Assembly: GCA_900317555.1 (NCBI GenBank)
Contig: ONHF01000016.1
Coordinates: 44,941-108,940 of the forward strand
Source: an uncultured Lachnospiraceae bacterium
Lineage (GTDB): Bacteria > Bacillota > Clostridia > Lachnospirales > Lachnospiraceae
DNA: 64,000 bases
Reading direction: 5' to 3'
The notes under the pieces are model-generated. The model did no database searches. It had not been told where the DNA came from and worked only from the letters and a program-made list of their open reading frames with translations. The translations under genes were made by a program, and so were the position numbers. Within the stretch, counting starts at the first letter, position 1; each line of letters begins with the position of its first letter. Positions 1,212 through 52,560 of this stretch are shown here, one piece after another.

Positions 1212-1605
1212 ATACGGCCTGCCCGGCGCGGCGCGGGGAAATTGAATCAGCGCAGCAGGGCAGGCTTCATGCAATATCGGGCCAGATGTGAAATTTGTCT
1301 TGGAATATCTATGCAAACGAGCAAGGTGCGGGCCGTATTGCCTGAAAATCAGCCAAATCTATGCAATGGCGGCCCGCACAAGAAATTTGTCTTGGAAAAT
1401 CTATGCAAAATGAGGCTGTGGCCCGATATTGCATGAAACGGAACAGCCCGGCTGCCGGGGGGAACAAACTACGCGTCATCGCGGAACAGCCCGGCCACGC
1501 GGCGGAGTAAACCCGCCGCCAGCCACACGGCCCACCCGCCGCCAGCCGCGCGGCAACAGCCCATCCGCCATCCGCCGCAACAGCCACAGCTTGCACCCGC
1601 TCTCA
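1212..1605. other. non-coding spacer with repeat B copy 1 and GC-rich degenerate repeats
   Basis: No gene is supported here. Bases 1266-1437 form a complete repeat B element (listed separately). From about 1438 to 1600 the sequence is very GC-rich, with loosely repeated CAGCCCGGC and CCGCCGCCAGCC motifs. Open frames across it have low-complexity, Pro/Arg-rich translations and are best read as chance. Confidence 0.6.
1266..1437. repeat. repeat B copy 1: 172-bp element with 19-bp perfect terminal inverted repeats
   Basis: The ends TTCATGCAATATCGGGCCA (1266-1284) and its exact reverse complement (1419-1437) form a perfect 19-bp inverted repeat. Inside is a second inverted repeat built on GTGCGGGCCG and CGGCCCGCAC, extended by ATTGC/GCAAT. 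Between the two layers a module reading TTTGTCTTGGAAAATCTATG or close to it occurs twice in direct orientation (from about 1291 and 1385). Three other copies of nearly the same length lie at 13365, 24070 and 35438. No coding capacity. MITE-like transposable element or structured extragenic repeat are both possible. Confidence 0.85.
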
Positions 1606-11737: not shown

Positions 11738-12806
11738 TAGAAAGCTATCGATTAGAAATACAGCGTGGGCAGGGATGCTCACGCTGATTGTCGTTGTAGG
11801 ATCGGTTATGGCGTACGGTGCGGTGGCCGTACTGTTCCTGCCGATGAACAGGTCCAATGCGCTCAGCATGGTTTTTATGGTTGTGCCGATGACGGTGCTG
11901 ATGTTTGTTTCGCTGCGGTTTGTTTTGCGGAAAATACAAGGCCGGATGGATCTCCTGACAGACGCGCTCAGGCAGGTGGCCGGCGGAAATCTTTCGGTGC
12001 GGCTGGACGAGGCGAACGCCGGCGAGTATGCGGCGGTCTATTCGGACTTCAATCATATGGTGGAAGAGCTGCAGCGGACGAAAGACGAGATGACGCAGTT
12101 TACAAATGACTTCGCGCACGAGTTCAAAACACCCCTCACCTCCGTCAAAGGCTTCGCCGATTATCTGTATGAGACCGGCGGCGGGATCGAGTCGAAAGAG
12201 CGGATGGAGTATCTGAAAGTCATCGCGGAGCAGTCCGGCAGGCTTTCGCGGATGGCGTCGAACACGCTGATTCTCTCGAAGGCGGAGGCCTGCCAGATTC
12301 CGGTCCACCAGACATGGTTCAATATGGGCGAGCAGATCCGCAGGTGTTTCATCGCGCAGAGCCGCGAAATGGAGCAGAAGCATCTGACTCCGGACCTGCC
12401 CGAAGATTTCGATTTCTCTTTCTATGGGAATGAGGAGCAGCTGGAGCAGATCTGGATTAACCTGATCGGCAACGCCATCAAGTTTACGCCGGAGGGCGGT
12501 GTTGTCGGTGCGCGGTGCGAGAAATCGGGTGGCGGCACCCTCGGCGCGCGGTGCGACAAGCCGGACGGCACTCTTGTCATTGAAATTTTTGATAATGGTA
12601 TCGGAATGGATCAGGAAACTATGGCACATGTCTTTGACAAGTATTATCAGCATGATCCGTCCGGCGTTTCGTCCGGCAATGGTATCGGGCTTGCGATTGT
12701 GCGGCGGATTGCGGAGTTGTACGGCGGGAGCGTCCGCGCCGAGTCGAAGCCCGGGTATGGCTCGGTGTTTACGGTGGAGCTGCCGGTGCGGGCGCGGGAG
12801 ATGTAG
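11718..12806 (+). CDS. sensor histidine kinase (HAMP, HisKA, HATPase), 362 aa
   Basis: Two membrane helices (about residues 18-40 and 52-72) with almost no extracellular loop are followed by a HAMP linker (72-125). The HisKA phosphoacceptor is H134 in DFAHEFKTPL. The HATPase domain has the N box (WINLIGNAIKFTP), G1 (DNGIGM, 292-297) and G2 (GNGIGLAI). Between the N box and G1, residues 262-284 hold an imperfect in-frame duplication (GARCEKSGGGT then GARCDKPDGT) that most homologues lack. The short sensor region suggests that it senses within the membrane or through a partner. Confidence 0.9.
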   Translation: MKRIKNNRKLSIRNTAWAGMLTLIVVVGSVMAYGAVAVLFLPMNRSNALSMVFMVVPMTVLMFVSLRFVLRKIQGRMDLLTDALRQVAGGNLSVRLDEANAGEYAAVYSDFNHMVEELQRTKDEMTQFTNDFAHEFKTPLTSVKGFADYLYETGGGIESKERMEYLKVIAEQSGRLSRMASNTLILSKAEACQIPVHQTWFNMGEQIRRCFIAQSREMEQKHLTPDLPEDFDFSFYGNEEQLEQIWINLIGNAIKFTPEGGVVGARCEKSGGGTLGARCDKPDGTLVIEIFDNGIGMDQETMAHVFDKYYQHDPSGVSSGNGIGLAIVRRIAELYGGSVRAESKPGYGSVFTVELPVRAREM

Positions 12807-12882
12807 AGGTGCAGGGCCGGGCGGGCGCGGGTCGGCGGCGCGCCAGTGGACCTGCTCTTTCCATCTACGTAGAGAAATGCGC

Positions 12883-13345
12883 TTTTTTTCCATCTACCCG
12901 GAGAAATACAAAGGTAGAGTATATCATGCTTCCATTAGATTTTCTCCATCTTGCCATCTGCGTAACATATTTCACTTGCAGAAGGAAGCATCTCTCCTTC
13001 TGGAATGGAATTTCAATATATAGCAGGACTTTCTCAGAATGTCAGAATCAAAGGAGCTTAAAAAAATTCCCTCCGGATAGAAATATCTCTACCTGGAAGG
13101 AATCTGCCACGCATCGCCGCGCTCAGATTGCGTCAAACCGTCATTCTATAAATAGAAATAAGCACGTGGAAGGACAATTCTACATAAAGCGCTTTGTTCC
13201 GGGCAGAAAAAGGTTGCCGGCTATCCATCAGCCGTCCATCCATACAAGCTTTCTTACGTGCAGATGGATGCATGCCCTGGCTACCTTCATACAAGTTTGC
13301 CTGCCGTCCTTCCAGACAAGATTTCTTCTCCCCGGATGGACGCAC
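12883..13345. repeat. repeat A copy 1: ~463-bp conserved structured non-coding element
   Basis: About 90% identical over its whole length to 24342-24803. It contains several hairpins that persist in both copies, for example ATTCC-TCC arms around 13066-13107 closing a short loop, GTGGAA/TTCTAC near 13166-13183, and CATCCAT/ATGGATG near 13238-13270. A partial duplication of its first ~25 bases lies immediately upstream (TTTCCATCTAC at 12858). Small indels between the copies rule out one shared reading frame. Strand of action unknown. Confidence 0.85.
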
Positions 13346-13364
13346 GCGCCGCGCCCCGGCAGCT

Positions 13365-13537
13365 TTCAATGCAATATCGCGCCGCCGGCTCATTCTGCAT
13401 AGAAATTTAAAGACAAATTTCTAGTGCGGGCCGCTATTGCATAGATTTGCGGGATTTTAAGGCAATACGGCCCGCACCCTACAAATTTGCATAGATTTTC
13501 CATGACGAAATTCATGGAAGCGGCGACATTGCATGAA
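13365..13537. repeat. repeat B copy 2 (173 bp)
   Basis: Ends TTCAATGCAATATCGC and GGCGACATTGCATGAA are imperfect inverted repeats like those of copy 1. The internal palindrome keeps the same core: GTGCGGGCCG then TATTGC (13424-13440), paired with GCAATACGGCCCGCAC (13462-13477). The TTTGTCTTGGA...CTATGCA module is present on the left in inverted orientation (TGCATAGAAATTTAAAGACA). It starts only 19 bases after repeat A copy 1. Confidence 0.82.
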
Positions 13538-13701
13538 TCGTCGACCGCGCACCGCCAAGTCCCGTCCGCCTGCTCTGCGGCCCGTCTCGCGGCGCACCAT
13601 GTCCCGCCGCCGCGGCCTACCCCGCACCCTATCCCGCAGAGAATGTATAACATCCGCTGATTATTCGCAAAATCTGTAAAATCTTTGTCCTCTCTTGCTG
13701 A

Positions 13702-13864
13702 TATGATGGAAACGTAAATGCGGCGGCAGAAAGTTTATGCCGCAGCTTAGTGATGACACAGGTGCAGGTGGCAGGAAGCTCTGCCGCAGCGCAGTGACCA
13801 CGTCAAAGAGGAGATATGCCTCTTCGTGGATACGAAAATCTTCTTAAATACAAGGAGGATCTCA
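13702..13864 (+). promoter_or_regulatory. extended -10 and tandem-hairpin leader of the GH31 gene
   Basis: TGaTATGAT (TATGAT at 13702-13707) is a candidate extended -10. The ~150-nt leader holds two copies, 45 nt apart, of a motif made of a GGCA/TGCC hairpin followed by GCAGC, two bases and AGTGA. Copy one has arms 13723-13728 and 13738-13743 with AGTGA at 13749. Copy two has arms 13770-13774 and 13781-13785 with AGTGA at 13793. A further small hairpin AAGAGG/CCTCTT (about 13806-13824) precedes the AAGGAGG ribosome site. It matches no riboswitch I recognise. Confidence 0.5.
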
Positions 13865-16402
13865 ATGAAAGTTTGCTATCGCGCGGGAACCGTGACGCAG
13901 GAAAACGGCATAGCACACATCCAAACCAATGCGGTGGAAATCCGTGTGCTTTTTCTGACAGATGACATTGTCCGCATCCGTGCCGGATTTGACGGGGACT
14001 GGGACGAGGCTTCCTACAGCCTTGCCATGACGGCATGGGATTCCAGAACCGATGAGCTTTTGAAAGATTACAGAAAGAGAGTAGAGCTCTCGCCATTAGC
14101 TGTTACAGATGGCGAGGACCGCGCAGTCATTCAGGGAAGGCGGCTCAGGGTCGTTGTCGAGAAAAAACCGATGCGCCTTCTGGTCTTCGATCAGGACGGA
14201 TCGCTCCTGCACGCGGACATTCCGGATCTTGCCTACCGGCAGGATTCGAACGGCAGACGGATTCACAGCTGTCAGATTGAGGCGGAGGATTGTTTTTACG
14301 GATTTGGAGAAAAGTCCGGAGAAATCAACAAAGCAGAAAAGTTCATGAACATGGCGCCCGGCGACGCGATGGGATATAACCCGAAGGAAACAGACTCGCT
14401 GTACAAGCATATCCCGTTTTACATCCGCCTGAACCGGACATCCAGACAGGCGGTCGGCTATTTCTACCACTGCACGGCGGAATGCGACTTTAACATGGGC
14501 AGGGAGAAGAGAAACTACTGGCACCGCTACGCAAGCTTCCGCGCGGATGCCGGAGATATTGATCTGTTCCTGATCGCGGGACCTTCCATGAAAGACGTCA
14601 TCCGGCGGTATACGGATTTGACGGGCAAGTCTGTTTTGCTCCCGAAGGCGGCGCTCGGCTACCTTGGCAGCTCGATGTACTATCCGGAACTGCCTAAAGA
14701 CAGCGACGACGCGGTGCTCGAATTCATCGACACGACAAAAGAAGAAGGAATCCCGGTGGACGGCTTCCAGCTTTCGTCCGGCTACTGCGCGGTCGAGACC
14801 GAGCAGGGCATCAAACGCTGCTCGTTTACATGGAATAACACCAGATTCAAGGATCCTGCGGCGTGGTTTGCAGCGATGAAAGAGCGCGGCATCACAGTTT
14901 CGCCGAACATCAAGCCCGGCATGCTCCTGGTGCATCCTCTGCTTGAAGAGATGAAAGCAAAAGACATGTTCATCAAGGCATCCGACGATAACCCCTGCGA
15001 CGAAGGCCCCGCAAAGGGACTCGGCATCGGAACGTGGTGGGGCGGTCCCGGTGTTTTTGTGGACTTTACGAAGCCTTCCACAAGAAAATACTGGAAAGAA
15101 TACATCACAGAACATCTCCTGAAATACGGCTGCGAGTCCATCTGGAACGACAACTGCGAATATGACAGCTGTGTGGATAAGGATGAGAAGGTTTATTTTG
15201 AGGGGAAAGGCGGTACAATCGGAAATCTCAAGCCGGTCATGAGCAACATCATGTGTCAGCTTTCGAATGAGGCGATCGAAGAGTACAATCCGAAGATCCG
15301 TCCGTTCTCGGTATGCCGCTCCGGACACGCCGGAATTCAGCGCTACGCGCAGGTATGGACCGGTGACAACCTGACCTGCTGGGAAGCGCTGAAATACAAT
15401 ATCGCGACGATGCTGGGCATGGGACTTTCGGGCGTTGCGAATATCGGCTCTGACGTGGGCGGCTTCTACGGACCGGCGCCCGAAGAAGAGCTGTTTGTCA
15501 GATGGGTGCAGAACGGGATCTTCATGCCCCGTTTCTCGATTCATTCGACGAACACGGACAACACGGTCACCGAGCCGTGGATGTACAGCAATCAGAAGCA
15601 GACAATCCGCGACGCGATTTCGTTCCGCTACCGCCTGAGCCCGTACCTGTACTCGCTCGAGTACCGCGCACATACGAGCGGCCTTCCGATCATGGAGGCC
15701 ATGTTCCTCGCGTTCCAGAACGACCCCGTGACATATGACGAAGGCGTGGATTTTATGCTCGGCGATAATCTTCTTGTTGCGAACGTGGTTGAAAAGGGCG
15801 CAAAGACGCGTACAGTCCGCTTCCCTGTGCCACAAAACAGCGCCGAGCGCTTCTACAACTTCTACACGAGAGAGCCGTATCAGCCCGGGGAAACCGTGGA
15901 GTTTCCGGTCGACATCACCAGCATCCCGCTCTTTGTAAGGAGCGGCGCGATTATTCCGATGTCGGAAAATCAGCTGATGAACCTGACGACCGGGAAGGTG
16001 AAGGCGCTGCACATTCTGATGGCGCCGGATGTGGATTCCACGTTTACGATGTACGAAGACGATGGAGTGTCGAATGCTTATGAAGACGGCGTTTTCCGCA
16101 AAACAGAAATCTCCGTCACAGCCGGCACCAGGACGATCATTTCCTTCCGTTCCGAAGGAAGCTATGCGTCAACGGTGGAGAAGATCCATCTGGATGCGAT
16201 CCACAGAGAAAAGGCTCCGTTCTACGTGCAGATTGACGGACAGGAAATTCCTCATTTCCTGCACAGAAGAAAGTTTGAGGAAGCAGCATGCGGCTGGTAT
16301 TACAGCCAGCGTCTGAAATCCGTCGAAGTCGTCTACCCGAATCCGAAGAAGGATCATGAGGTGCTGATTTCGTTCGAGCAGTTTGATTTAATCGGAATGT
16401 AA
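13865..16402 (+). CDS. glycoside hydrolase family 31 (alpha-glucosidase/alpha-xylosidase type), 845 aa
   Basis: ATG at 13865 has AAGGAGG nine bases upstream; an in-frame upstream ATG at 13826 has none. The N-terminal ~190 residues are a GH31 beta-sandwich, followed by the TIM barrel. The nucleophile is D429 in WNDNCEYD and the acid/base D501 in WTGDN, both in the expected GH31 contexts (SIWND and RYAQVW). The C-terminal part (from about 640) has the beta-sandwich with a DUF5110-type end (TFTMYEDDG). No signal peptide, so it probably hydrolyses imported alpha-glycosides. It is closely related in layout to the second GH31 at 20339. Confidence 0.9.
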   Translation: MKVCYRAGTVTQENGIAHIQTNAVEIRVLFLTDDIVRIRAGFDGDWDEASYSLAMTAWDSRTDELLKDYRKRVELSPLAVTDGEDRAVIQGRRLRVVVEKKPMRLLVFDQDGSLLHADIPDLAYRQDSNGRRIHSCQIEAEDCFYGFGEKSGEINKAEKFMNMAPGDAMGYNPKETDSLYKHIPFYIRLNRTSRQAVGYFYHCTAECDFNMGREKRNYWHRYASFRADAGDIDLFLIAGPSMKDVIRRYTDLTGKSVLLPKAALGYLGSSMYYPELPKDSDDAVLEFIDTTKEEGIPVDGFQLSSGYCAVETEQGIKRCSFTWNNTRFKDPAAWFAAMKERGITVSPNIKPGMLLVHPLLEEMKAKDMFIKASDDNPCDEGPAKGLGIGTWWGGPGVFVDFTKPSTRKYWKEYITEHLLKYGCESIWNDNCEYDSCVDKDEKVYFEGKGGTIGNLKPVMSNIMCQLSNEAIEEYNPKIRPFSVCRSGHAGIQRYAQVWTGDNLTCWEALKYNIATMLGMGLSGVANIGSDVGGFYGPAPEEELFVRWVQNGIFMPRFSIHSTNTDNTVTEPWMYSNQKQTIRDAISFRYRLSPYLYSLEYRAHTSGLPIMEAMFLAFQNDPVTYDEGVDFMLGDNLLVANVVEKGAKTRTVRFPVPQNSAERFYNFYTREPYQPGETVEFPVDITSIPLFVRSGAIIPMSENQLMNLTTGKVKALHILMAPDVDSTFTMYEDDGVSNAYEDGVFRKTEISVTAGTRTIISFRSEGSYASTVEKIHLDAIHREKAPFYVQIDGQEIPHFLHRRKFEEAACGWYYSQRLKSVEVVYPNPKKDHEVLISFEQFDLIGM

Positions 16403-16410
16403 AGATGGCG

Positions 16411-16432
16411 GGCGCCGGCGGAAGCCGGCGCC
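16411..16432 (+). terminator. hairpin after GH31 gene
   Basis: GGCGCCGGC (16411-16419) and GCCGGCGCC (16424-16432) form a perfect 9-bp stem with a GGAA-type loop, 6 bases after the stop. The following sequence TTACTTGTGTTTG is only weakly T-rich, so termination may be partial. Confidence 0.5.
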
Positions 16433-16633
16433 TTACTTGTGTTTGCCCTGCCGCCAGCTGTGCCGCCTCGCGCAGCCACGCATTCCAACCGCAAGATATG
16501 TATAAAAATCGCCCATCAAGAGCTGAAAATGTAAAGCCTTGCGCAACGCCGCAGTGTAAAATGCTTGCATAAAGCAATAAATTTTCGATTAATTTTCTTA
16601 AAAAGAAATAAACTGTGTGAAAAAGGAGTCAAC

Positions 16634-17185
16634 TTGAACAAAGCCAGGTATTCCTGCAGAATGCAGCATACGCCGCATACAATTCAGGTTATGTTTTGTA
16701 CGCAATATGACCAGTACCGGAAGAAACAGGAGTTTGCGATTATTGCGGCGGGGATCGTTCTGGTGGCGCTGGCGGTATTGCTGCCCGTGCCAAGAGCTCT
16801 GCGGATCCTTCTGCTTGCGTCAGGTGGCTGGGTCATTGTCAGCCGTAACTTTCCCGCGGTGATGCGGGCTTCGGATACTGTTGAAGCGAGAAAGAAGTCC
16901 GGTATGCAGCTTCCTGCATACCGCTATGAATTCTATGACGATCATCTGCGGCTGTCCGGCGAAGGCAGCATGGCAATTCCGTATGAGAGCATCGAACGGC
17001 TGGTGGAGGACAAGAAGTACTACTATCTGTTCACCGGGCCGGATACGGTCATGATGCTGGACCGCGGGACGATTGGGAGCGAACCGGAAAATTTCCGGAA
17101 GTTTCTGCAGGAAAAGACCGGAAAAGAATTCAGAAGAGCAAGAAATCTCTTGCTGACAACGCTGCGGGATCTGCTTGGGCAGTAG
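16634..17185 (+). CDS. YcxB-like membrane-associated protein, 183 aa
   Basis: TTG at 16634 is chosen because AAAAGGAGTC lies just upstream; the longer frame from 16565 has no ribosome site. The protein has two adjacent hydrophobic segments (EFAIIAAGIVLVALAVLLPV and ALRILLLASGGWVIV) in its first third. A cytoplasmic domain follows with YEFYDDHLRLSGEGSMAIPYESIERLVEDKKYYYLF, the pattern of YcxB-like C-terminal domains. Function is unknown for the family. It lies between GH31 and the TRAP genes, but the gap to the latter suggests separate transcription. Confidence 0.7.
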   Translation: MNKARYSCRMQHTPHTIQVMFCTQYDQYRKKQEFAIIAAGIVLVALAVLLPVPRALRILLLASGGWVIVSRNFPAVMRASDTVEARKKSGMQLPAYRYEFYDDHLRLSGEGSMAIPYESIERLVEDKKYYYLFTGPDTVMMLDRGTIGSEPENFRKFLQEKTGKEFRRARNLLLTTLRDLLGQ

Positions 17186-17385
17186 CGCGATCGCGGAGCG
17201 TTGGCGCATGAACCCTTGCCGGAGCGCCTTACGATCGCCAGCAGCTGCGCCGGCCGCTGCGCGCCGCACCGTGCGAACGTCCGGCAGGCATCGCGATCGC
17301 CCGGCCAAGCTGCACCGCGCCGGCTGCCCGGAAACCGGGCAAGGCGCCCGCGAACTCCGCGCCGCGCCCCACAAAAACGACAGTA

Positions 17386-17406
17386 ACCTGATTCCGGAAG
17401 TCAGGT
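17386..17406. promoter_or_regulatory. near-perfect palindrome upstream of TRAP operon (possible operator or leader hairpin)
   Basis: ACCTGA (17386-17391) and TCAGGT (17401-17406) flank a self-complementary TTCCGGAA, giving a 21-bp near-palindrome 13 bases before the AAGGAGG ribosome site of the TRAP binding protein. It could be a regulator site or an mRNA hairpin. The upstream stretch 17186-17385 is GC-rich with no gene. Confidence 0.4.
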
Positions 17407-17431
17407 GAAGGAAATATAAGGAGGATAAGAT

Positions 17432-18457
17432 ATGAGACGATTCCAAATGGCGGCGCTCGCCATTGTAAGCGCCGCGATCGTTGGCCTGACAGGATGCGCG
17501 AACGCCACGCCTTCCGTCAACGCAAAAGGTGAGAAAATCACCAAGCTGAAAATCGGTCATAACCTGGCCGAAGACCACGCGGTCAACATCGCGATCGAAG
17601 GAATGGCGGATGAAATCAAAGAAACATCCGGTGACACCGTGGAGATGCAGATCTACCCGAATGGCATTCTGGGTTCCGAGACCGACATGATTCTGCAGAT
17701 TCAGGCAGGCGCTCTGGACATGGCGAAGGTTTCCGCTTCGACATTGGGCAACTTCAGCAGCGAGTTTAACGCGTTTTCAGTGCCGTATGTTTTTGACGAC
17801 AGGGATCACTTCTACAAGTTCATGGATTCGGACGCGGCGAAGGAAGTTTTCCAGTCCACAAGAGATCAGGGCTTCATCGCGCTGACATGGCTGGATTCCG
17901 GCGCGCGCTCTTTCTACACGGCAAAGAGAGCGATCCGCGAGCCTTCCGACCTCAAAGGCCTCAAGATCCGTACAATGGATTCCAAGATGGCCATTGATAT
18001 GATGAAGGACCTCGGCGGCTCCGCAACGGTTATGGGCTACTCCGATATCTACACAGGACTGCAGCAGGGCGTCATCGACGGCGCGGAAAACAACATCACC
18101 GCCCTTCGTGACCACGGTGAAGTAAGCAAATATTACTGCTATGATGAGCACACAAGAATTCCGGATATTGTGATCATCTCTACGAAGGTATGGGACAGCC
18201 TGACACCTGAGCAGCAGGAAGAGCTGCAGACCGCCGCGAATAACATGACCGAACAGTACAAGAAGTCCTGGGCGGATTTCGAGGCACAGGTCAAGAAGGA
18301 CGCCGAGACCAAGTTCCATGTGGAATTTGTGGAAGACGTCGACAAAGCAGCGTTCCAAAAGGCTTGCCAGCCGATCTACGACGAACTCAGGACTTCGGAG
18401 CCTGACTGCTACAAGGTTGTAGAAGCCATCCGCGGGATGGCGAACAGCGCGTCCTAA
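17432..18457 (+). CDS. TRAP transporter solute-binding protein (DctP family), 341 aa
   Basis: The signal peptide ends in a lipobox LTGC (cleavage before the Cys at about residue 22), so it is a membrane-anchored lipoprotein. The body follows the DctP fold: LKIGHNLAEDHAVNIAIEGMADEI near the start, the conserved Arg that binds the carboxylate of the ligand in LKGLKIRTMDS, and the GLQQGVIDGAENN segment. DctP proteins typically bind acidic ligands such as C4-dicarboxylates, sugar acids or uronates. It is first in a three-gene TRAP operon, with a good AAGGAGG site before ATG 17432. Confidence 0.93.
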   Translation: MRRFQMAALAIVSAAIVGLTGCANATPSVNAKGEKITKLKIGHNLAEDHAVNIAIEGMADEIKETSGDTVEMQIYPNGILGSETDMILQIQAGALDMAKVSASTLGNFSSEFNAFSVPYVFDDRDHFYKFMDSDAAKEVFQSTRDQGFIALTWLDSGARSFYTAKRAIREPSDLKGLKIRTMDSKMAIDMMKDLGGSATVMGYSDIYTGLQQGVIDGAENNITALRDHGEVSKYYCYDEHTRIPDIVIISTKVWDSLTPEQQEELQTAANNMTEQYKKSWADFEAQVKKDAETKFHVEFVEDVDKAAFQKACQPIYDELRTSEPDCYKVVEAIRGMANSAS

Positions 18458-18468
18458 GGAGGAACAGC

Positions 18469-18969
18469 ATGAAAAAGGTAAATAAAATTATCGACGGCGT
18501 GATGCGTTTCCTGATGGCAGTGTCCATGTTCGCGCTGATCGCAGGCGGTTTCTGGCAGATTTTCTCAAGATGGATTCTGAAAAATCCCTCGACATTTACG
18601 GATGAATTTCTCCGCTATGTACTGATCTGGGCTTCGATGATCGGCTCGGCGTATTGCTTTTACACCGATCAGCATCTGGCACTGGACCTTTTGAAGAGCA
18701 AAACACACGGCATCGGAAAACTCATTCTGAATGTTTTCATTGAAGGCTGCGTTATGTTTTTCGTAATTTATGTCTTCATTCACGGCGGCATGATGCTTTC
18801 GAAATACAGCACGAACGCTTCTTCCGTTATGCACATCCCGTTCAAGGTGCTGTACGCGATTCTTCCGGCATCAGGTATCATGATCGTTGCCGCAAGAGTG
18901 CTCAAGTACGTGGAATACCTGCTGGACTACCGCAGCGCAAAAGCTGAAAAGGAGGGAGCAAAGAAATGA
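18469..18969 (+). CDS. TRAP transporter small membrane subunit (DctQ family), 166 aa
   Basis: Four hydrophobic helices with the DctQ-type W(A)SMIGSAYCFYTDQHLALDLL region after the second helix. It pairs with the large DctM subunit to form the sodium-coupled membrane part of the TRAP transporter. It starts 11 bases after the binding protein, with AAGGAGG before ATG 18469, and overlaps the large subunit by four bases. Confidence 0.9.
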   Translation: MKKVNKIIDGVMRFLMAVSMFALIAGGFWQIFSRWILKNPSTFTDEFLRYVLIWASMIGSAYCFYTDQHLALDLLKSKTHGIGKLILNVFIEGCVMFFVIYVFIHGGMMLSKYSTNASSVMHIPFKVLYAILPASGIMIVAARVLKYVEYLLDYRSAKAEKEGAKK

Positions 18970-20279
18970 TTGGTCAGTCTATCGCGATCCTGTTCGGATC
19001 CTTTTTCGTCCTTTTGTTCGCGGGCGTGCCGATCTCGGTTGGTATCGGCATTGCTTCGATCATTACAGGCTGTTTTTTCATTCCTGCGGACATTTTTTCG
19101 ATTATTGCCGCGCAGAGATGTTTTTCCGGAATTGATTCCTTCTCCCTGCTCGCCCTTCCGTTCTTTATGATGGGCGGCAACATCATGAACAAAGGCGGTA
19201 TCGCCAAGAGACTGGTCAGACTCGCAAGACTCGTTGTCGGCAAGGTTCCCGGATATCTGGCAGCGACCAATGTTCTCGCGAACATGTTCTTCGGCGCGAT
19301 TTCCGGTTCGTCCGTTGCAGCGACTTCGGCAATGGGTTCCATCATGAGCCCCCTCGAAAAAGAGGAAGGCTATGATCCGAATTACTCCGCGGCAGTCAAT
19401 ATCTGCTCGGCGCCGACCGGTATTCTGATTCCCCCGTCAGGTCCGCTTATCCTGTATTCGATCACGGCCGGCGGCGTTTCCGTCGCGGCTCTGTTCATGG
19501 GCGGATATTTCACGGGCGCGCTTCTGGGCATCGCTGTTTTGGCCGTAACCATTGTCCTCGCGAAAAAGAAAGGGTACACGGCCTCCCAGATTGAAGAGAA
19601 AGACCCCGCCGGGAAGGTTCTCGCGGATTCGATCCCGTCTCTGCTCGCGGTCATCATTGTCATGGTCGGTATCCTTGCCGGCTGGTTCACAGCGACCGAG
19701 GCAGGCGTTGTCTGCATCCTGTACTGCACGGTTCTCGCGATCTGCTATCGTGAAATCACCTTCCGCGATTACTATGACATGCTCGCGGACACCATGGTCA
19801 GCTCCTCGACCATCCTGTTCCTGATTTCTGCATCCACGATCATGTCCTACGTTATGTCCTTCACGGGCATTCCGGGCGCGATCTCCAATGCTTTGATGAG
19901 CGTTTCCAGCAACCGCTACGTCATCCTCCTGATCATGAACGTATTCCTTCTCATCATGGGCATGTTCCTGGATCTGACTCCCGCAGTTCTGATTTTCACG
20001 CCGATCTTCCTGCCGATCGCAACCTCTGTCGGCATGAATCCGGTTCACTTCGGTCTGATGCTGATCATGAACCTCGGCATCGGCTCCGTAACGCCTCCGG
20101 TAGGCTCCTGCCTGTTCGTCGGCTGCGGTATCGCGCATACAAAGATCGAGGGTGTTACCCCGTACATCGTAAAGATCTTCGCTGCCATGGTGGCGGCGCT
20201 GTTCGCTGTTACCTTTATCCCGGCGATCCCGATGATCATCCCGTACCTGCTCGGTCTGGTAGACAAATTCTGGTGGTAA
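18966..20279 (+). CDS. TRAP transporter large membrane subunit (DctM family), 437 aa
   Basis: About 11-12 hydrophobic segments with typical DctM sequence: LPFFMMGGNIMNKGGIAKRLVRLAR, GAISGSSVAATSAMGSIMSP, ICSAPTGILIPPSGPLILYS and the C-terminal NLGIGSVTPPVGSCLFVGC. This is the sodium-driven translocation subunit. It overlaps the small subunit by ATGA and is followed at once by an intrinsic terminator and then by a GH31 gene. Confidence 0.93.
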   Translation: MIGQSIAILFGSFFVLLFAGVPISVGIGIASIITGCFFIPADIFSIIAAQRCFSGIDSFSLLALPFFMMGGNIMNKGGIAKRLVRLARLVVGKVPGYLAATNVLANMFFGAISGSSVAATSAMGSIMSPLEKEEGYDPNYSAAVNICSAPTGILIPPSGPLILYSITAGGVSVAALFMGGYFTGALLGIAVLAVTIVLAKKKGYTASQIEEKDPAGKVLADSIPSLLAVIIVMVGILAGWFTATEAGVVCILYCTVLAICYREITFRDYYDMLADTMVSSSTILFLISASTIMSYVMSFTGIPGAISNALMSVSSNRYVILLIMNVFLLIMGMFLDLTPAVLIFTPIFLPIATSVGMNPVHFGLMLIMNLGIGSVTPPVGSCLFVGCGIAHTKIEGVTPYIVKIFAAMVAALFAVTFIPAIPMIIPYLLGLVDKFWW

Positions 20280-20288
20280 ATTCCGCGT

Positions 20289-20321
20289 GGGGCAGCGCCG
20301 CAAGGCCTGCCCCGTTTTTTT
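20289..20321 (+). terminator. intrinsic terminator/attenuator between TRAP operon and GH31
   Basis: GGGGCAG (20289-20295) pairs with CTGCCCC (20307-20313) and is followed by G and seven T residues. It lies between the DctM stop and the next ribosome site (AGGAG at 20325-20329), so read-through would be needed for GH31 expression from the TRAP promoter. Confidence 0.8.
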
Positions 20322-20338
20322 ATAAGGAGAATTTGAAA

Positions 20339-22858
20339 ATGCTGCTCAAAGAGTACAAATCCATCGTCAAAACAGAAAACGGCTATATCATTCATGCCGA
20401 TGCGGCAGACCTGATGCTTGTTTTTCTGAAGGAAGACGTCATCCGTATCCGCGTTTCGTTTGACAGAACATTTCCGGAAGCGTCCTACGCGCTTGTGACA
20501 ACCGCCTGGGAAGACCGCCTGGACCCTCTGTTTGCGGGTGAAAGGAAACGGATCACCGCGCTGGACGTTCCTTATGAAGACGGGAAGAACAAACTGGTAT
20601 TCCACACCGGCGCTCTGCGTCTTGTCATGAGAAAATGCCCGCTATCCTTCGTCCTGTATGATGAGAAAACCGGTGAACAGTTGTATGCCGACCTGCGGGA
20701 AAGAGCTTTCGAGAAAGATCAGCTCGGCCGCGTTTCCCATTACTCGCTGATGGACCGCGCAAGGGATCATTTTTACGGCTTCGGCGAGAAAACAGGTTAT
20801 CTCGACAAAAAGGGCAGGCGCCTGCGGATGTCGCCCAAGGACGCGATCGGTCACGATCCGGAATTCGGCGATCCGATGTACAAGCACATCCCGTTCTACA
20901 TCCGTCTGAACGAGGACGCGCTGCGCCCGGTCGGCCTTTTCTACAATAATTCCTATGACTGCGTCTTCGACATGGGACAGGAGATCAGCGGCTACTGGGA
21001 CCGCTACTGTTACTATCAGGCGGACGGCGGCGACATTGATCTTTTCCTTATGACCGGCAAAACAATCCGCGACGTCGTCGAACACTACACCTGGCTGACC
21101 GGCAGAACTGTTTTGCCGACCAAGCAGTCGCTTGGCTACTGCGCGTCGACGATGTACTACGCCGAGCTCGAAAAGGACTGCGATCAGGAAATTTACCGCG
21201 TCATCGACAAACACGAGAAGGAAGATATTCCGATCGACAACTTCTGGCTCGCTTCGGGGTATTCGTCAGGAGAAGAAGACAATCTGCGCTATACCTTCAA
21301 CTGGAATCACAAACGTTTCCCGAACCCTAAGGAATTCTTTGACACAATGTCGGCGCGCGGCGTCAACGTGATCTGTAATCTGAAGCCCGGTGTGCTGAAG
21401 AATCATCCGTACGCGGACTTCTACGAGAAGAGAAACGCGTTCATCAAAACGCCGGACGGCAAGAACGATTATTACGGCCGCTGGTGGGGCGGCGAAGGCC
21501 GGTTCATCGACTTTACGGGCAAAGCAGGCCGTGACGCGTGGAAAGAACTCCTCGATAAAACAATCCTCTCCATGGGCGAAAAGACGGTCTGGAATGACAA
21601 CTGCGAGATGGACGGTGTGGAGGACAGGAGCGCTTACTGCGATTTTGAAGGGCAGGGCGGCACGATGGCCGAGCTCAAGATCATCCATTCCAACATGATG
21701 GCGTGGCTCGGCAGAAAAGCACTCCTTGAAAAATGGAAGGGCGAGCGGCCGTATGTCATCAACCGCGCGGGATTTGCCGGCATCCAGCGCTATGCGCAGG
21801 TCTGGGGCGGCGACAATCTGACGGACTGGCGCACGGTCAAGTTCAATATTGATACGATTCTCGGTATGGGACTTTCCGGCTGCGCGAACATGGGCTGCGA
21901 CATCGGCGGTTTTACAGGTCCTGCGCCGACCGAGGAGATGCTGCTCCGCTGGATCCAGACCGCGATTTTCCAGCCCCGCTTTGTTATCAATTCCGCGAAC
22001 ACGGACAATACCGTGACGCAGCCCTGGATGTATGAGGAAGACCTGCCGTATATCCGCCGCGCGTTCCACCTGCGCTATCAGATGCTGCCGTATCTGTATT
22101 CGCTGATGCGCGAGGCCAGTGTGGACGGCTCGCCGGTCATGCGTCCGCTCTTCTATGAGTTCCCGCAGGACAAAGCCCTTTACAGCGACCGCCACATGGA
22201 ATTCATGTTCGGTCCTTCGGTTCTTGTTGCGAATGTCGTGGAAGAAGGCGCGAAGACAAGAGAAGTTTATCTTCCCGCAGGAGCTCTCTGGTACGACATG
22301 GCCGACAACATGAAGCAGTACGAAGGCGGGCAGACGATTGTGATTCCTGTTGATAAGGACAGCATTCCGATGTTTTTGCGTGGAAGCGGCATTTTCATGA
22401 CGACCGGCGACATCAAAAAGATTACGAAAGACACGATGCGGCATCTGGATATTCTGATCGGTGCGCAGGAAGACGCTTCGTTTGACTTCTACGACGATGA
22501 CGGACATACGATGCAGTATGAAGACGGCGTTTACGCGCTGACGAAGATTGAGGTTACAAGCGGGGAAAGAACGAAGATCCGTTTCCGCAAGAGCGGGAGT
22601 TTTTCTTCAACGGTGCAGCAGATTCAGCTGCGTGTCGTGAGCAAGGAGAAGGGCGCTTACTGGTGCGATGTCTGCGGCCGCAGGCTCCCGCGCTTCATTG
22701 TAAAGGACGACTTCGAAAAGGCGCGGGAAGGCTGGTTCTATAACATGCCGGACCGCACGGTCCTTGTGAAGTTTGACCGCCCGCAGCAGGATGACTTCGA
22801 GGTTACGGTGTCCACCGAGAAGTTTGATCTGGTGGGCATGGTGCTGCCGGAGGAGTGA
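20339..22858 (+). CDS. glycoside hydrolase family 31, 839 aa
   Basis: ATG 20339 sits nine bases after AGGAG; the in-frame region upstream overlaps the TRAP stop and the terminator. Same architecture as the GH31 at 13865: N-terminal beta-sandwich, TIM barrel with nucleophile D420 (WNDNCEMD) and acid/base D492 (WGGDN), and C-terminal sandwiches with FDFYDDDG. It has no signal peptide. Having two paralogues on either side of a TRAP transporter suggests that they cleave two related alpha-linkages in the cargo. The exact linkage cannot be read from the sequence. Confidence 0.9.
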   Translation: MLLKEYKSIVKTENGYIIHADAADLMLVFLKEDVIRIRVSFDRTFPEASYALVTTAWEDRLDPLFAGERKRITALDVPYEDGKNKLVFHTGALRLVMRKCPLSFVLYDEKTGEQLYADLRERAFEKDQLGRVSHYSLMDRARDHFYGFGEKTGYLDKKGRRLRMSPKDAIGHDPEFGDPMYKHIPFYIRLNEDALRPVGLFYNNSYDCVFDMGQEISGYWDRYCYYQADGGDIDLFLMTGKTIRDVVEHYTWLTGRTVLPTKQSLGYCASTMYYAELEKDCDQEIYRVIDKHEKEDIPIDNFWLASGYSSGEEDNLRYTFNWNHKRFPNPKEFFDTMSARGVNVICNLKPGVLKNHPYADFYEKRNAFIKTPDGKNDYYGRWWGGEGRFIDFTGKAGRDAWKELLDKTILSMGEKTVWNDNCEMDGVEDRSAYCDFEGQGGTMAELKIIHSNMMAWLGRKALLEKWKGERPYVINRAGFAGIQRYAQVWGGDNLTDWRTVKFNIDTILGMGLSGCANMGCDIGGFTGPAPTEEMLLRWIQTAIFQPRFVINSANTDNTVTQPWMYEEDLPYIRRAFHLRYQMLPYLYSLMREASVDGSPVMRPLFYEFPQDKALYSDRHMEFMFGPSVLVANVVEEGAKTREVYLPAGALWYDMADNMKQYEGGQTIVIPVDKDSIPMFLRGSGIFMTTGDIKKITKDTMRHLDILIGAQEDASFDFYDDDGHTMQYEDGVYALTKIEVTSGERTKIRFRKSGSFSSTVQQIQLRVVSKEKGAYWCDVCGRRLPRFIVKDDFEKAREGWFYNMPDRTVLVKFDRPQQDDFEVTVSTEKFDLVGMVLPEE

Positions 22859-22908
22859 TTGACGCCGCCGTGATCGCGCGCAAGCCGGGTCGAAGGTATA
22901 TATGAGAG

Positions 22909-22941
22909 AGGAAAAGCCGGGCGGTCAGCCCTGCTTTTCCT
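22909..22941. terminator. terminator hairpin between convergent GH31 and AraC genes
   Basis: AGGAAAAGC (22909-22917) pairs with GCTTTTCCT (22933-22941); the interior GGGC/GCCC can extend it. It lies between the converging genes and may end transcription from both sides, although the T-run is short. Confidence 0.5.
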
Positions 22942-22966
22942 AATCCTGTAGAGGATTGCTGCGGTG

Positions 22967-23797
22967 CTATGAAGACGACTTATGCAGTTCGCGGGCATGC
23001 TTTCTGTAAGCGGACGGCGTTTCACCTGTGATCTGCTGGAAAATCCGGTTGAAATGCGTCAGACTCGCGAACCCTGTCTGCTCCGAAACCTGCGTGACGT
23101 TCAGATCTGTCTCCATGAACAGACGCTGCGCGTTCATGATGCGGGTCTGCTGGATGTACTGGATGATCGTGCGGCCGGTAGCTTTGCGGAATTCCCGGCA
23201 CATATAGTATTCGCTGATGTAGAAATGGGACGCGAGCGCCGGGAGCGAGAGAGGATTGGCATAATTCGAGTGAATATATGCCATGATCTTTTGCATGCGG
23301 TTTTTGTTCTGGGTAGAACCTTTCTCGTGGCGTGTCCGCAGAACCTTGAGAAGCAGGAGATTCAGCAGGGAGCAAAGATACGTGTCATGGTATTCTTCGG
23401 AATTATCCTTCTCTTCCAGCATGTCGAAAATTGTACGGCGGATCCAGTGCAGCAGGTGCGGATCAGGCCGGTATAGACCGCTCCCCTCCTTGGCGGCGGC
23501 AAGAAGCACGGGATCGCTGATCATTTCCGGCGTAAAGTAAATCACAACCCGCGAAAACGGAGCATCCTTGTCACTGTAAGAATGATGCATGACAAGCGGC
23601 GCGAACAGCATAATGTCTCCCGGGATATTGTCAAACGCGACTCCGTTCAGCTGCTGATGACGGCTTCCGGAATCGAGGAAATACAACTCAAAATATTCAT
23701 GATAGTGGGAACGGGACATGTTGTCGTTGACGCTGGAAATCTGCTCCAGCGCGATGCCCTTTCCCTGTGCCATTTCGGTCTGTGCGCTGTCAATCAT
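22967..23797 (-). CDS. AraC family transcriptional regulator with N-terminal cupin-like domain, 276 aa
   Basis: The N-terminal half has the AraC cupin pattern (SRSHYHEYFELYFLDSGSRHQQLNG and PGDIMLFAPLVMHHSYS, the latter with the usual His). The C-terminal domain has two helix-turn-helix motifs ending in FNRIFQQITGETPSAYRKH. I place the start at ATG 23797 because it gives the usual ~280-aa length and has a purine-rich GAGAGG site upstream. In-frame alternatives extend to a TTG at 23887. It faces the second GH31 gene and is a candidate regulator of the GH31/TRAP region. Confidence 0.88.
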   Translation of the reverse strand: MIDSAQTEMAQGKGIALEQISSVNDNMSRSHYHEYFELYFLDSGSRHQQLNGVAFDNIPGDIMLFAPLVMHHSYSDKDAPFSRVVIYFTPEMISDPVLLAAAKEGSGLYRPDPHLLHWIRRTIFDMLEEKDNSEEYHDTYLCSLLNLLLLKVLRTRHEKGSTQNKNRMQKIMAYIHSNYANPLSLPALASHFYISEYYMCREFRKATGRTIIQYIQQTRIMNAQRLFMETDLNVTQVSEQTGFASLTHFNRIFQQITGETPSAYRKHARELHKSSS

Positions 23798-24069
23798 CTT
23801 TCTGGCCTCTCTTCGATAAGCATCGTTCCGTTTCTGGTATCTGGCTGATATCATCAGAATACTACAGCAAAAGCGCATCCCCTTCAAGGAAGCAAAACAT
23901 CAACTTTGTCTCATCGCCGCGCCCCGCCGGCTGTCCGGCGGGATGATCGGCGCCGCGCGGGGCGGCAGTGGCCTGACATCCTGTCCGCGCGGCTCGGCTG
24001 CATGAATCGCGGGCCGGACACTTTACCGGGGTGTTATCCCGGCGTCGCGGCAGCAGACCTGCCCGTCTG

Positions 24070-24241
24070 TTCAATGCAGTATCGCGCTGCCTGCTTGATC
24101 TGCATAGAAATTTAAAGACATTTCTATCGTACGTCGCGGTATTGTCTGGATTCGGCTCGAATCCAGACAATAGGCTCCGTGCCTTGCAAAACGTCTTGGA
24201 TTCTCTATGCAAATCCCAATGATCCGGCGATATTGCATGAA
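24070..24241. repeat. repeat B copy 3 (172 bp)
   Basis: Ends TTCAATGCAGTATCGC and CGGCGATATTGCATGA are imperfect inverted repeats. The internal palindrome has changed sequence but kept its place: TATTGTCTGGATTCG pairs perfectly with CGAATCCAGACAATA across a 3-base loop (about 24149-24181). The left module TGCATAGAAATTTAAAGACA and the right module GTCTTGGATTCTCTATGCAA face each other. Same length as copy 1. Confidence 0.82.
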
Positions 24242-24341
24242 AGCAAGCACCGCGATGAAGAGAATGAGGCTAAGTGTGCGACGGTGAAGAGAAATCAGGC
24301 TAGATACAAGCTTGCTATTTCCAGCTGCTTGCTGAAATTTG

Positions 24342-24803
24342 CCCTTTTTCCATCCGTCCGGAGAAATACGAAGGCAGAGTATACAATGCTTTCATTAAAT
24401 TTTCCCATCTTGCCATCTGCATAACATATTTCACTTGCAGAAGGAAACATCTTTCCCTCCAGAATGAAATTTCAATATACAGCAGGACTTTCTCTGAATG
24501 TCATAATCAAGGAAGCTTAAAAAAATTCCCTCCGTATAGAAATATCTCTACCCGGAGGGAATCTGCCATGCATCGCCGCGCTCAGATTGCGTCGACCCGT
24601 CATTCTATAAATAGAAAAAAGCACGTAGAAGGACAATTCTACATAAAATGCTTTGTTCCGGGCAGAAAAAGGTTGCCAGCTATCCATCAGCCGTCCATCC
24701 ATTCAAGCTTTCTTACGTGCAGATGGATGCATGCCCCGGCTACTTCATACAAGTTTGCCTGCCGTCCTTCCAGACAAGATTTCTTCTCCCCGGATGGACG
24801 CAC
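24342..24803. repeat. repeat A copy 2: ~462-bp conserved structured non-coding element
   Basis: About 90% identical to 12883-13345. Several stems are perfect here where copy 1 has wobble or mismatch: ATTCCCTCCG pairs with CGGAGGGAAT (about 24525-24564), and GTAGAA pairs with TTCTAC around GGACAA (about 24627-24644). It lacks single bases present in copy 1 (for example one C in GGCTAC(C)TTCATAC and one in TTTTC(T)CCATC), so the two do not share an open frame. Lies 100 bases after repeat B copy 3. Confidence 0.85.
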
Positions 24804-24908
24804 CGCCTGCGCGCCCTGCACTTTTCTCCGAATTAGAATACACGAAAGCTTGCATGCGTGCGATAATAACAATGTGAGGGGAAAACGGAATAAAAGGGGC
24901 ATACAGAA

Positions 24909-35400: not shown

Positions 35401-36161
35401 AAGAGATAGGCAGGCAGGGCGGCGCGGCACCGCCCTGTCAATGCAATAGCGCTGGCAAGCCCGGCTTTGCATAGGATAATCCAAGACGTTTTGAAAGGCG
35501 CGGAGCATATTGCATAGATTTGATAAAAATCTATGCAATACAGCTCCGCGTTATAGAAATGTCTTGGATTTTTCATGCAGAATGAGACTGCGGCGGCGTA
35601 TTGCATTAAGAGCGAGCGGATGCCGTTGAGCCGCTGCGCTCTGCGGATCATAAAAATTGCTAGACGCTGTATTTTACTCAAACAAGTTCCATCTGCAGGA
35701 CAATTTTTTAATTACAGAAGGCTGAAGTCCTTGTATGCCATGGCCTGCCTCATACGAAAAGGCCAGCGGCCTGCCATCTGCGTCTGCAAATTCAATAACA
35801 GGAGGAGGTGCACTTCCTGCTGTTATTGAAAAAGGATGCGTGGAAGGAAGTGAAGAATAAATCAAATAGATACATGATACTCCGATTTCGAAATTTGTCT
35901 CGGCAAATGGAATTTACGCAGAGAGTATGCAAAAATTTCTGTAAATAGGATTTCCTGTGATAAGATTTATGCCTGACAGACCAGTGAAGTGCAGCTCTCA
36001 GGCTGTCAGGCGGCTGCTTATTATATAAAAGGCCATAACCGGCTTTGCCGGTTTCACCCCAGATCATACGGTCATGATCTGGACGGAAATACCCGTCAAA
36101 ACATTGTCAACCATTGCAGGAATATCGTTCTTCGATTTACCCTTGCTGTTTTTTAACAAAG
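35401..36161. other. 760-bp non-coding stretch between convergent genes with repeat B copy 4 and several hairpins
   Basis: After repeat B copy 4 the sequence carries strong hairpins: TTCAATAACAG with CTGTTATTGAA (35791-35830), GCCTGACAG with CTGTCAGGC (35971-36011), ACCGGC with GCCGGT (about 36038-36054) and CCAGATCAT with ATGATCTGG (36059-36082). The word GCCATCTGCGT is shared with repeat A, but long homology to A is not evident. No gene could be supported. Confidence 0.6.
35438..35609. repeat. repeat B copy 4 (172 bp)
   Basis: Ends TCAATGCAATA and TATTGCATTAA match the other copies in reverse complement. The internal palindrome has CGCGGAGC with GCTCCGCG and TATTGCATAGATTT with AAATCTATGCAATA. 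The AATCCAAGAC and GTCTTGGATT modules face each other and can pair perfectly over 10 bases. So copy 4 can fold into one long nested hairpin. Confidence 0.82.
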
Positions 36162-44912: not shown

Positions 44913-44945
44913 CCGGCTGTTCCGCAAGAAGCAAAGGGGGTATTT

Positions 44946-52287: not shown

Positions 52288-52560
52288 GGCTGCGGCGCAG
52301 CGGCGAGATTGCTTGCGGCAGTGACGGCTGCGGCGCAGTAGCGATGGGATTGCTTGTGGCAGTGACGGCTGCGGCGCAGCGGCAATGGGTGCGGGCAATC
52401 CGATTTCTTGCAAAACAGAACGATGGCAGGATTTGCAAGAAGGCCTTCGTTGTGAGAGAAGAAATCCCGGGATTTGCCGGAAGAAAACGGGTGAGACAAC
52501 AAATTTCTTCTTGCAAAAGTGTAGAAAAAGCGAATTTGCAAGAAAGGCTTCTTGCAAACA
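52288..52560. repeat. imperfect ~40-bp tandem repeats followed by CTTGCAA inverted repeats
   Basis: Units beginning GGCTGCGGCGCAG start at 52288, 52326 and 52367 (38-41 bp, containing GATTGCTT and GGCAGTGAC). Then TTCTTGCAAA and TTTGCAAGAA form a perfect inverted repeat, once around 52411-52451 and again around 52507-52545, with a third half copy after that. All is non-coding. Confidence 0.7.

Follow-up and report, generated by a model that had tools for sequence, protein, structure and literature searches.

Prokaryotic miniature inverted-repeat transposable elements (MITEs) are small non-coding repeats that lie in unrelated places, and in ParB–parS systems palindromic sites scattered over the chromosome are bound by a dedicated protein. 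Arrays of clustered regularly interspaced short palindromic repeats (CRISPR) have a repeat length and period similar to the about 34 and 73 bp of the element described here, repeat A, which recurs in a 64,000-nucleotide stretch (the window; positions 44,941 to 108,940 of contig ONHF01000016.1, forward strand) of the genome of an uncultured Lachnospiraceae bacterium (assembly GCA_900317555.1). The portion of PMC2817692 on which we draw describes repetitive extragenic palindromes (REPs) and bacterial interspersed mosaic elements (BIMEs) as short palindromes that lie outside genes in dispersed, regularly spaced clusters and are bound by protein, and REPs as keeping their hairpin complementarity and carrying a GT(A/G)G head. 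Sites of SegB in Sulfolobales are, in an excerpt of PMC12284271, scattered palindromes with a 13-bp motif, TCTAGASTCTAGA, and some loci hold more than one site.

Repeat A shares with REPs and BIMEs the extragenic position, the dispersal and the regular spacing of clustered short palindromes, but its arms vary independently, its sites are helically phased and its spacer sequence is free. Like parS and SegB sites, its palindromes are scattered over the chromosome, but they are 34 bp long, stand in fixed multi-site arrays and have a putative binder. Unlike CRISPR repeats, they are degenerate and differ within an array, and their spacing varies in helical-turn steps. We found no description of such arrays in the literature, as covered by titles and abstract openings and with subscription journals little represented. 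Here we report that repeat A is a multi-site, phased, selectively conserved DNA element. Judging from the sequence features below, we favour, with some reserve, the reading that it is a multi-site platform for a putative dimeric DNA-binding protein of this lineage.

Repeat A is built of 34-bp dyad sites

A preliminary description of the window had reported two copies of repeat A, about 90% identical. Both are real: 12883–13345 and 24342–24803 are 92% identical, and ungapped repeat pairs span 12853 to 13357 and 24313 to 24815. A third, shortened array at 35658–35850 in the window had been overlooked. The contexts of the two copies, called unrelated, are not wholly so, as one further repeat, B, adjoins both (13368–13536 and 24073–24240). 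As had been judged, repeat A looks unlikely to be coding, given the single-base indels between copies and the nearly random spacers. The window holds the following arrays.

12853..13345, plus strand: array A1 (copy 1), strong sites at 12953, 12995, 13068, 13141, 13235 and 13307 (start-to-start gaps 42, 73, 73, 94 and 72 bp), weak site at 12889
24313..24803, plus strand: array A2 (copy 2), strong sites at 24412, 24454, 24527, 24600, 24694 and 24765 (start-to-start gaps 42, 73, 73, 94 and 71 bp), weak site at 24349
35658..35850, minus strand: third, shortened array, sites at 35773 and 35815, 42 bp apart; 32 bits with model R1 (see below), 39 bits with nhmmer

The third array is cut off on the side where its B element sits. 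The three arrays (12.9, 24.4 and 35.8 kb) are nearly evenly spaced, about 11.4 kb apart, probably by chance, as there are only two intervals.

Listing every TCC(A/C/T)TC in A1, A2 and a further full copy, A3, revealed a recurrent 34-bp imperfect palindrome. The site is a dyad, TCCWTCYG-N18-CRGAWGGA, with an A/T-rich centre. A weight matrix built from 43 sites, with A1–A3 down-weighted to one third each, gives TCC(A/T)TC(C/T)G as the half-site, mostly with a T in front of it, and an A/T-rich centre, which reads AAATTT in the consensus. Each array has about 5–7 such sites. Allowing at most one mismatch, TCCHTCY-N20-RGADGGA occurs 13 times in the window, against 0.37 expected in shuffles; A1 and A2 account for 12 of these and the third array, near 35.8 kb, for one. 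The source genome itself (G000; 2.29 Mb, 32 contigs, 87% complete) has 16 exact sites against 1 for a reversed control pattern, 14 of them within arrays and two outside (C10:16314 and C10:68309), and the nearest species (G023) has 2 against 1. The TCCATC 21-mer, with up to 2 mismatches, gave 9 matches in G000 (5 exact, in A1–A3) and none in G023.

Additional arrays came to light through sites separated by 42 bp or by comparable distances. The sequence-only model R1 was built from seven arrays and run on G000 and G023 with 150 candidates scored in each. In G000 it finds ten near-complete arrays (74–220 bits; A1, A2, A3, C10, C15a, C15b, C26, C31a, C31b and C16) and three fragments (window 35.7 kb, 32 bits; C23:49062, 39 bits; C16:671, 19 bits); everything else listed for G000 is a match to the opposite strand or to an end of the same arrays. 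Repeat A is multi-copy beyond the original two, and the BLASTN comparison among relatives that the preliminary description had proposed likewise found further copies in G000 and a short match in G023. In G000, copy 1 matched A3, on contig 23, at 80% identity, and a 107-bp piece. G023 carries arrays at five places: C5 (173 bits), the orthologue of C15b; C3 (99) and C26 (56), the two sides of the C31a locus, both at contig ends; C31 (38); and C30 (17.5 bits), which is the last site of the C10 array.

Sites are set near whole helical turns

The gap order 73-62-53-42-73-62-83 recurs, whole or in part, in all ten near-complete G000 arrays, with one-turn changes in A1–A3. Gaps between site starts, in A1 orientation, are listed below (bp).

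A1 and A3: 64-42-73-73-94-72, first site weak
A2: 63-42-73-73-94-71, first site weak
C10: 54-42-73-62-83, first site weak
C15a: 73-61-53-42-73-62
C15b: 53-42-73-62-83
C26: 62-53-42-73-61-83
C31a, C31b and C16: 42-73-62-83, last C16 site weak
G023 C5: 53-42-73, then 143, fourth site under threshold

The list omits two other weak peaks, in A3 and C26, because they overlap or do not keep the register. At 10.45 bp per turn, gaps of 42, 53, 62, 73, 83 and 94 bp come to 4.0, 5.1, 5.9, 7.0, 7.9 and 9.0 turns. Where homologous gaps are unequal, the difference is close to 1 bp or close to 11 bp (62/73, 83/94, 53/64), the left-hand gap being 53–54 or 63–64. In an alignment of 11 arrays, two gaps set the A subfamily apart from the rest by 11 bp, and the other internal length differences are 1 bp. 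With one value taken per gap class (73, 61.5, 53, 42, 73, 62, 83 and 72), the mean cosine was 0.85 at a period of 10.5 (P = 5e-5 to 1.4e-4, depending on how wide a range of random gaps is allowed). P stayed at or below 3.1e-4 on dropping any single class, and was 2e-4 when the period was left free. The sites are set near whole helical turns, facing one side of the DNA.

Half-sites are conserved over free spacers

Across four subfamilies, identity was 0.66–0.78 in half-sites, 0.42–0.55 in site centres and 0.30–0.40 in spacers, against 0.26 from shuffled letters. The sole intact orthologous pair, C15b and G023 C5, keeps 74 of 80 half-site positions (93%) and 102 of 136 spacer positions (75%; P = 0.001); the neighbouring 1.6 kb are 88% identical. 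Half-sites were better kept, at P < 0.014, in five of eight related array pairs, which were chosen from 55 and are not independent. Dyad sites conserved over free spacers and held in helical phase are what a protein-bound array would be expected to have.

The arms of the palindromes do not covary

The preliminary description had read hairpins kept by paired changes between the two copies, and had suggested a large structured RNA. Pairing of the ATTCCCTCC/GGAGGGAAT arms is indeed better in copy 2 than in copy 1; GTGGAA/TTCTAC, as read by eye, no longer pairs in copy 3 or in the other subfamilies. In a set of 45 sites drawn from eight arrays, which excluded A2 and A3 because they nearly duplicate A1, an arm agreed with its own partner no more than with arms from other sites (0.667 against 0.672 shuffled). 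Standard pairs in the alignment test amounted to 72.2% against 73.2% shuffled, and the covariation score of 0.143 (0.135 shuffled) was reached by 123 of 500 shuffles and rose to 0.180 when the arms were slid by −2 columns. The register of the palindromes is nevertheless genuine, with 72% of arm cells paired against 33–51% when slid. The covariance check that had been proposed, run over many arrays, therefore gave no significant arm covariation and speaks against an RNA.

Folding gave a similar picture. RNAalifold returned large consensus folds for the three near-copies, but over 11 arrays it found 16 pairs (−8.2 kcal/mol), 4 of them with changes on both sides. Since the arms do not covary and the 11 arrays share almost no fold, the compensatory hairpins are not upheld. 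Some signals do favour an RNA, among them the palindromic register, the large folds of the three copies and the folding of A1 on both strands better than shuffles. Read on the minus strand, site 3 of A1–A3 also resembles an intrinsic terminator. In both species, a terminator-like hairpin behind an ATP-binding cassette (ABC) transporter ATPase gene is what is left of an A array.

13060..13103, minus strand: site 3 of A1 as a terminator-like hairpin, read from the sequence, with seven T after the hairpin
L117:13060-13175 and L118:2945-3116: hairpin remnant behind the ABC-transporter gene; in G023, half a B lies between gene and hairpin

A terminator pattern scanner with a loop limit of 8 did not list the site 3 hairpin, and pattern scans for promoters and terminators found none. 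Rfam gave nothing over the whole window at the gathering threshold, and six matches at 12700–13700 with E ≤ 10, all far under their gathering scores; no described family had been recognised before either. Repeat A thus has neither a covarying consensus structure nor a credible match to a known RNA family, and its helical-turn spacing would be needless for an RNA. It is probably a DNA element rather than an RNA gene, and we regard a large structured non-coding RNA as highly improbable.

The same data bear on the REP/BIME family proper, whose short palindromes lie outside genes, work as hairpins and owe their spread to a REP-associated tyrosine transposase (RAYT). Repeat A does consist of mostly extragenic, multi-copy palindromes of ~34 bp in regularly spaced clusters, as the cited portion of PMC2817692 describes for BIMEs. 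But its palindromes are not kept by complementary changes, its sites number in the tens against the usual more than 100 copies per genome given there for REPs, and the site consensus, read by eye, is without a GTAG head. Membership of that family is improbable.

Arrays occur in two species and are absent from some G023 loci

BLAST with A1 found matches in 2 of 62 genus genomes (up to 10 candidates scored per genome), namely G000 itself and 67 bp in G023, and in 4 of 299 family genomes (best 2 candidates per genome), namely G000 and three with 25–38 bp. The pieces in these three (G238, G255 and G274) read by eye as parts of genes and were rejected as copies. R1, searched against 295 relatives with the best 5 candidates per genome and stricter filters, matched 34 genomes at E ≤ 0.01, the best outside G000 and G023 reaching 23.5 bits. 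At 28 weak loci of other relatives (L144–L171) there were five single sites of at least 12 bits and no two within 100 bp, against 4–7 sites per array of the family at that threshold. These matches were counted as chance because no array of sites is present there, which slightly strengthens the case for a binding platform. As few candidates were scored per genome, copies in other genomes may have escaped. A pattern search of wider genome contigs gave 0 matches in a set that may exclude the own or near genomes, and one of viral contigs gave 0 at low sensitivity, the pattern fitting exactly only C10 array loci; blastn of A1 and B against plasmids and phages found no match.

Loci were compared between G000 and G023 for A1, A2, A3, C10, C15b and C31a. 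At A1, the G023 counterparts of window positions 12862 and 13365 are separated by a single base. Eight bases from the edge of the array persist, and CTCTTTCC, the last bases before the gap, is also found at the same edge in A3, which suggests a deletion in G023. At A2, B is present and the array absent. At C10, about 566 bp are missing from G023, in which the last site and B are retained. The missing stretch is flanked on both sides in G000 by GCCGGCC, and the G023 junction has GGCGGCC. It begins in a terminator-like hairpin behind a hydrogenase gene, well before the array, and is therefore read as a deletion, although the 7-bp repeat could be a target duplication. Of these three absences, those at A1 and C10 look more like G023 deletions, to judge from the junctions. 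At C31a, the G023 arrays are shortened, and one of them is a fusion whose junction falls within two site centres. The flanks of A3 lie about 16.8 kb apart in G023, where a ~16.8-kb segment (C31:47180-63945; L116) is present that is missing in G000 C23 near 33 kb (L073); with B on both sides of A3, a repeat-mediated deletion or rearrangement is possible.

These comparisons bear on whether repeat A, together with B, is a non-autonomous mobile element of MITE or BIME kind, its sites read by a transposase or recombinase supplied elsewhere and its spacing kept for a synaptic complex, with no benefit to the host. The dispersed copies beside unrelated genes, the association with B, the presence and absence between sister species, the detection in only two species and the direct repeat at C10 all agree with this. 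However, the missing stretch at C10 does not coincide with the array, as the upstream terminator-like hairpin is gone while the last site and B stay. The eight bases left at A1 and the orthologous array kept with conserved half-sites likewise tell against mobility, and no cognate enzyme is known, although no genome-wide search was made for one. We consider this explanation rather unlikely.

Element B often caps the arrays

B is a ~170-bp nested inverted repeat with 20 BLAST matches at about 18 places in G000; in a genus search (62 genomes, best 4 candidates per genome), it matched only G000 and G023. Its central stem covaries copy by copy: in a test much like the one applied to the array sites, 12-nt arms gave 7.76 matches within a copy and 5.90 between copies, a result reached in 0 of 5,000 shuffles (17 copies, the arm finder slipping on at least one, L019). 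B is a hairpin or MITE-like element in its own right and fits the MITE kind better than the array does, which shows no clear target-duplicated insertion or terminal repeats and consists mostly of phased internal sites. B occurs in the window as follows.

13368..13536, plus strand: beside A1, at the '83/94' array end (nhmmer)
24073..24240, plus strand: left of A2, at the other array end (nhmmer)
35440..35607, minus strand: beside the third array (nhmmer)
1267..1435, minus strand: B with no array found beside it (repeat search and nhmmer)

By a hand tally, in which B at G023 C3 comes from BLAST and eye rather than nhmmer, a complete or partial B stands no more than about 135 bp from an array or fragment in 8 of 13 cases in G000 and in 4 of 5 in G023. 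It is on the '83' side in 10 of 12; A2 and C16:671 are exceptions, and A3 has B on both sides. nhmmer found no B beside C15a, C26, C31a, C16, the C23 fragment or G023 C26. A2 and A3 are homologous across B, spacer and array (710 bp, 79%). The array often forms a composite with B, mostly at the '83' end.

Neighbouring genes

At nine loci checked, the arrays lie between longer open reading frames (ORFs), with small overlapping ORFs at some, and by eye the neighbouring genes are convergent, tandem or divergent. Several neighbours have no Pfam match; those with one are listed below.

A1: histidine kinase, GH31
A2: AraC, YhhN
Third window array: DUF3298, IlvD
C10: iron-only hydrogenase, helix-turn-helix (HTH) protein
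C15a: GntR, EamA
C16: glycogen phosphorylase
C31b: GH3
A3: endonuclease

No common pathway is visible among these genes, which argues against a local promoter element. Two further features of the window were noted: at 13826–22858, two GH31 genes (pieces about 70–74% identical in DNA) flank a tripartite ATP-independent periplasmic (TRAP) transporter cluster with DctP and DctM, and at 52289–52370 there is a 41-bp tandem duplication, 80% identical.

A putative nucleoprotein platform

In the mechanism that we propose, a dimeric protein of this lineage would occupy the dyad sites side by side. Protein contacts, or DNA bends at the A/T centres, would then unite the bound dimers in a single nucleoprotein complex covering about 300–500 bp. 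This complex could act as a regulatory platform or, more speculatively, as a chromosomal anchor or organiser.

Several observations weigh against a binding platform. The binder of the sites is putative only. The phasing is based on 8 gap classes from one homologous architecture, with one chosen value per class, and the clustering peaks at 10.25 bp rather than 10.5. A1/A2 and C31a/C31b lack better arm conservation, and C15a/C26 reach P = 0.02 only. Arrays were found in only two species, and at the A1, A2, C10 and C31a loci of G023 they are missing or cut down, so that none of these four is indispensable singly. Taken singly, A1 as RNA has a better fold than its shuffles on either strand (z about −3), and the GCCGGCC repeat at C10 weakens the proposal slightly.

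A bolder form of the platform proposal, which we put forward as a tentative possibility, is that repeat A may be an undescribed chromosomal element with a 'spacing code', in which a lineage-specific protein would read up to seven or more sites set 7-6-5-4-7-6-8 turns apart. This would form a nucleosome- or centromere-like particle at about ten places, often capped by B at one end.

Palindromic protein sites can mimic RNA stems when two copies are compared, until arm covariation is tested over many. An array in ten copies that keeps its helical spacing while its spacers are nearly erased is strong indirect evidence of a multi-subunit DNA-binding complex, and the sites are explicit enough that the protein could be captured in one pull-down.

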